IMG/VR virus record: IMGVR_UViG_3300009514_000014
Location: 1 to 64,000 of that record
Strand: one strand, 5' to 3'
DNA from: a virus
DNA length: 64,000 nt
Below are positions 25,892 to 26,256 of the stretch, in pieces. A model generated the notes under the pieces. That model was not told the DNA's origin. It ran no database searches and was given only the letters and a program-made list of their open reading frames with translations. Position 1 is the first letter of the stretch. The number at the start of each line of letters is the position of its first letter. The position numbers and the translations under genes were made by a program.

Positions 25892-26256
25892 GGGGATGAA
25901 AAGGTTTCGACAGGGATGATCGAAGTGAAAGAGTGCAAGCCGGGGAATGATTGGTCACCTCGTGAAAAAGACTGGTCAAGTTCAAACGCCAATGACAACG
26001 CTTACGCGGAGCCTATGGCTCAAGCTGCCTAGTGCAGCTTCGTCTCGCCACCCCTCCTGACTGTGACAGGTGGATGAGACGTCATTGAACGGTCTAGGAG
26101 CCGGCAGTCCTCGTCGGGTCGGTTCCGAGATGCAGACGAGAAACGAACCGTGTGGAGCCTGTCGCTGGGCGCTCTCGGGGGTTAAATCAGCGACTAAGCT
26201 TGTAGGATCTCTGCATGACGCGTTTCTGGACTCGGGTTCGATTCCCGACTTCTCCA
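25892..26256 (+). ncRNA. ssrA: tmRNA
   Basis: 5' end GGGGATG pairs with 3' CTTCTCC (one mismatch), with the diagnostic AAGGTTTCGACAGGG near the 5' end and a T-arm TCGGG TTCGATT CCCGA at the 3' end. The tag frame at 25988-26032 reads ANDNAYAEPMAQAA then TAG. Length about 365 nt, normal for a one-piece tmRNA. It lets the phage rescue stalled ribosomes and tag products for proteolysis. Confidence 0.93.

Follow-up and report, generated by a model that had tools for sequence, protein, structure and literature searches.

A divergent, probably functional one-piece tmRNA encoded within the tRNA array of a phage

Background

Does a tmRNA gene located inside the tRNA array of a phage serve trans-translation, and does an uncommon ending of its tag change the fate of the tagged products? 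This question is raised by a locus in the first 64,000 nt (64 kb, here called the window) of an IMG/VR virus record of 83,955 bp, which is itself a fragment. A first-pass annotation made from the sequence alone had read a full-length tmRNA here, with a tag ending in QAA, and had called phage tmRNAs rare but known. The latter is roughly right, as they are reported from 402 of 18,146 phage genomes, in 133 unique forms (PMC9004378).

Results and discussion

ARAGORN finds a complete one-piece tmRNA gene (ssrA) at positions 25892-26256 of the window, on the + strand. The Rfam model RF00023 matches positions 25892-26257 with 153.1 bits (gathering score 47 bits) and an E-value of 2.5e-60, and the match covers model positions 1-374 of 374. 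These values exclude a chance match; all other matches to this model in the same record reach at most 33 bits, the best of them being tRNA genes. According to both programs the 5' and 3' tRNA-like halves are located at opposite ends in the standard order, which rules out a two-piece (permuted) tmRNA. Thus, the coordinates, strand and tag given by the first-pass annotation were exact, the Rfam model it had named as a check aligns over its full length, and the tRNA-like domain and the tag frame are both present. A scan for consensus promoters and terminators yielded nothing above chance.

The anatomy was read by hand, together with a scripted complementarity check. The 5' half of the tRNA-like domain (25892-25911, + strand) holds the acceptor strand GGGGAUG (25892-25898), which includes G3 of the G3-U70 pair, and the D-loop GGUUUCGAC. 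The 3' half (26198-26256, + strand) consists of one strand of the long helix, the T-arm UCGGG-UUCGAUU-CCCGA with its stem UCGGG/CCCGA, the acceptor strand CUUCUCC (26249-26255) and the discriminator A. T-arm and D-loop are of the SmpB type. In the acceptor stem six of seven pairs are formed, the exception being a U6-U67 mismatch. The G3-U70 pair, the identity element for alanine, occurs in 37 of the 38 one-piece tmRNAs compared (from the window and from viral loci). The long helix is made up of UGCAAGC (25934-25940) and GCUUGUA (26198-26204). A 3' CCA is not encoded; the bases following the gene are AAC.

Pseudoknot 1 (25941-25977, + strand) has stems of 5 bp (25941-25945/25958-25962) and 8 bp (25949-25956/25970-25977). 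Pseudoknots 2-4 were located at 26041-26194 (+ strand) by the complementarity check: pseudoknot 2 with the outer stem CGUCUC/GAGACG (26041-26046/26076-26081), its second stem not being traced, pseudoknot 3 with stems of 9 bp (26097-26105/26118-26126) and 6 bp (26110-26115/26135-26140), and pseudoknot 4 with a perfect second stem of 7 bp (26161-26167/26188-26194). The second stems of pseudoknots 1, 3 and 4 thus have 6-8 pairs, and the pseudoknots flank the tag. The tag reading frame (25988-26032, + strand) begins at the resume codon GCC at 25988, with an A at position -4 of this codon, encodes ANDNAYAEPMAQAA in codons 25988-26029 and ends with the stop UAG (TAG, 26030-26032). This stop is placed in the loop of a 7 bp hairpin (26022-26040, + strand), according to the complementarity check and the Rfam alignment; in the E. 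coli tmRNA, the tag stop codon likewise lies in a hairpin loop.

Overall, the identity to other viral tmRNAs is approximately 43% at best, but the end segments that match best reach 76-93%. A diverged body combined with a conserved tRNA-like domain suggests selection on the functional domain. The intact T stem, long helix, pseudoknot stems and stop-codon hairpin, together with six of seven acceptor pairs, argue for a functional phage-encoded one-piece tmRNA that would rescue stalled ribosomes with the host machinery during infection. We assign this reading a probability of about 0.82. The single acceptor mismatch and the lack of a tmRNA in the closest relative that spans the array (see below) speak against it.

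The element is viral, as can be concluded from the IMG/VR record together with a portal gene at 61797-63566. The portal protein shows about 30% identity to those of phages infecting Rhizobium, Rhodobacter, Aeromonas, Pseudomonas and Bacillus, and it matches many Streptomyces phages more weakly. Matches of tRNA-Ala to Ruegeria and Erythrobacter phages were rejected as host indicators, being too short to count. The tRNA array that holds the tmRNA extends from 12101 to 36464 (+ strand). With about 43 tRNAs (ARAGORN, Rfam) it serves all 20 amino acids; 42 of them were found by ARAGORN, one with an ambiguous anticodon, and one by Rfam only. The latter (29964-30035, 37 bits) was missed by ARAGORN; at its place the related record G004 has a tRNA-Met(CAT). 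The tRNA at 13397-13471 has an anticodon loop of 8 nt, TTTAGCTA, for which ARAGORN gives the anticodon 'tagc', and G004 has a tRNA-Ala(CGC) there; it is possibly a frameshifting or decayed tRNA. Also within the array (24014-24898, + strand) lies a gene for an RlaP-like nucleotidyltransferase of an RNA repair family (PF10127, 1.4e-17; phrog_388), possibly a tRNA repair enzyme. Caulobacter jumbo phages encode homologues with 36-37% identity to its product. Dense tRNA clusters were seen in other viral loci as well, with 16-23 tRNAs within 6-15 kb in L347, L355 and L366; those of L347 and L355 accompany a permuted tmRNA with the tag ANDESYTPVAQAA.

SmpB was found neither in this record nor in 15 other viral records, nine of which have a one-piece tmRNA, by a search that was positive in 10 of 10 bacterial control genomes. 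Since the record is a fragment, this absence is suggestive and no proof. It implies that the tmRNA should work with the SmpB, alanyl-tRNA synthetase and ClpXP of the host.

Four viral records contain relatives of the portal, at 57-60% identity, and only one of them, G004 (82 kb), spans the tRNA array. About 69 ORFs of the window are matched in G004, overlapping frames included, and its array is colinear, with the tRNAs largely in the same order (L186, L187). In the window, a gene for a TusE/DsrC-family protein (25550-25882, + strand; PF04358, 3.3e-20; TIGR03342, 57.5 bits at a cut-off of 53.5) stops 9 bases upstream of the tmRNA. Its counterpart in G004 (ORF L186:15887-16186) is 35% identical and occupies the same place, but there no tmRNA is present between this gene and a tRNA-Thr(GGT), which are about a dozen bases apart. 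As the neighbour is kept and the tmRNA is absent, the latter must have been gained or lost between the two relatives, and this phage group can do without it. Both TusE/DsrC-like proteins have a single C-terminal Cys (GMSKPGCGGY in the window, GLPRPGCG in G004). That both of these related phages have the gene at one position within the array suggests a role of this sulfur carrier in tRNA thiolation, which fits better than one in sulfur respiration or oxidation. A scan of viral contigs for the TusE-like protein gave no confirmed relative, by an exact-peptide method that would miss 35% homologues such as that of G004.

The full tag consists of an A from the charged tmRNA followed by ANDNAYAEPMAQAA, with Q in the third position from the end. 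Over its first seven residues, AANDNAY, it agrees with AANDENY of E. coli at the positions contacted by SspB, and AAND--Y, the pattern of the segment that binds SspB, is kept. The terminal Ala-Ala is intact. It is the C-terminal Ala-Ala that matters most for degradation by ClpXP (PMC7652416), while AANDENY binds SspB, and ADAS in place of ALAA weakens ClpXP degradation (PMC8512704). The earlier suggestion that the ending could alter the choice of host protease is not supported by these features; Ala-Ala and AAND--Y are both kept. The ending itself had been read correctly and is uncommon, but the stress laid on it has to be reduced: a single targeted scan for the pattern AND...QAA in viral contigs returned 44 stretches, with a tmRNA confirmed by ARAGORN in over half of them, and yielded 17 further distinct viral QAA tags from one-piece and two-piece (permuted) genes. 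The permuted examples include ANDNNAYVDYAQAA. Thus, the -QAA ending is uncommon but recurrent in viruses. Viral one-piece tags otherwise have L, V, I, M, A, K or H at position -3. The exact tag pattern had no match in viral contigs. In three further viral one-piece tmRNAs (L236, L320, L323) the tag is very long or shifted (ANDNVVSLNAFRARKNVVSLQHAA; ANDNDRIEVADTFPAEWLAAPAESALVAA; ANAVANDNDVALPLQAAA).

This recurrence might mean that phages repeatedly evolve -AQAA tags (compare AANDNAYAEPMAQAA), the present tmRNA being one instance, in order to have tagged products degraded more slowly than with the host -LAA ending or by another protease. Indeed, the AND...QAA pattern occurs in none of 398 sampled Pseudomonadota genomes, 228 of which match if any residue is allowed at -3, and the weaker degradation with ADAS fits this idea. 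If true, exchanging the hydrophobic residue before Ala-Ala would retune the proteolysis of tagged products in infection. However, among 100 tmRNAs in viral loci chosen regardless of -3 only two end in QAA, both with one and the same tag, so that a viral enrichment of QAA is unsupported. Furthermore, LAA becomes QAA by a single base change, and the intact Ala-Ala also argues against retuning. Bacterial tags starting with ANDN or ANDD have non-L endings too (4/21, compared with 12/29 viral one-piece tags). We therefore regard such a retuned tag as unlikely. An unusual freedom at -3 in viral one-piece tags is not claimed either: the apparent contrast of 12/29 to 8/83 non-L endings comes from a bacterial sample mixed with other tag types, and narrows to the above 12/29 versus 4/21.

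A functionless copy of a host ssrA, left by imprecise prophage excision or as the remnant of an integration site, has in its favour that many tmRNA matches in IMG/VR carry host-type tags, as is normal for prophages at host ssrA; the first tmRNA pattern scan of IMG/VR found mostly these, with tags such as ANDENYALAA. Here, however, the gene lies in the interior of the tRNA array with phage genes on both sides, away from a host integration site, even if a prophage state is still conceivable. Direct comparison of its DNA with phage and plasmid collections gave no match. The looser tag pattern ANDNx[FY]AEP found six stretches in a collection of species-representative genomes, none with a tmRNA by ARAGORN. 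Together with a structure intact despite strong sequence divergence, this makes a relic very improbable. Even less credit is due to a decoy that titrates the host SmpB or blocks the host tmRNA. A suggested precedent is the RNA of phage DS6A, which extends barely beyond the tRNA-like domain; inhibition of tmRNA is known for a similar molecule (PMC4131195). In the present gene, however, nothing of the mRNA-like part is missing: resume codon, open tag and a stop in a hairpin are all there. The likeliest reading of the sequence remains ordinary trans-translation in which SmpB and proteolysis are supplied by the host.

With the bacterial one-piece tmRNAs (RF00023) the window's shares the full anatomy, G3-U70, T-arm, pseudoknots and an ANDx tag ending in Ala-Ala, but it is phage-encoded in a tRNA array with no smpB on the record, lacks an encoded 3' CCA and has Q at -3 of the tag. 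Mycobacteriophages Bxz1, Cali, Catera and Wildcat and Bacillus phage G likewise have a full tmRNA in a large phage (PMC4131195); in contrast to these, the tag is of the ANDN type here and the DNA matches no phage record. The marine phage Melnitz and its relatives also represent environmental phages with an own tmRNA (PMC9004378), theirs being two-piece and the window's one-piece. Similar in type are the viral contigs L341 (ANDNEPFALPQAA) and L343 (ANDNAFVPMAQAA, a 433-kb contig), with a one-piece gene and an ANDN tag ending in QAA. At the DNA level L341 matches best, with 76% over 72 nt, yet the tmRNA bodies are largely unalignable to the window's, and no other shared proteins were detected in the loci compared.

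Conclusion

Under the preferred reading of a functional tmRNA, the gene, lying behind the TusE-like gene, would be transcribed as part of the array, and host RNase P and related enzymes would trim its RNA. CCA would be added by a host (or phage) nucleotidyltransferase, alanine charged through G3-U70, and host SmpB bound. In the infected cell, the phage tmRNA could then free ribosomes stuck on broken or non-stop mRNAs by adding A+ANDNAYAEPMAQAA, and host ClpXP would most likely still degrade the tagged products. Together, tmRNA, tRNA array and the RNA-repair-type enzyme may form a translation-maintenance region that would make the phage less dependent on the decaying RNA pool of its host.

The tmRNA described here is new and divergent, of an already documented kind, and adds an intact one-piece gene in a phage with tRNAs for all 20 amino acids. 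The 17 further distinct viral tags turn the remark on -QAA into a testable question. The TusE/DsrC-like neighbour, at the same place of the array in two phages of which one has the tmRNA, is perhaps the sharper lead.
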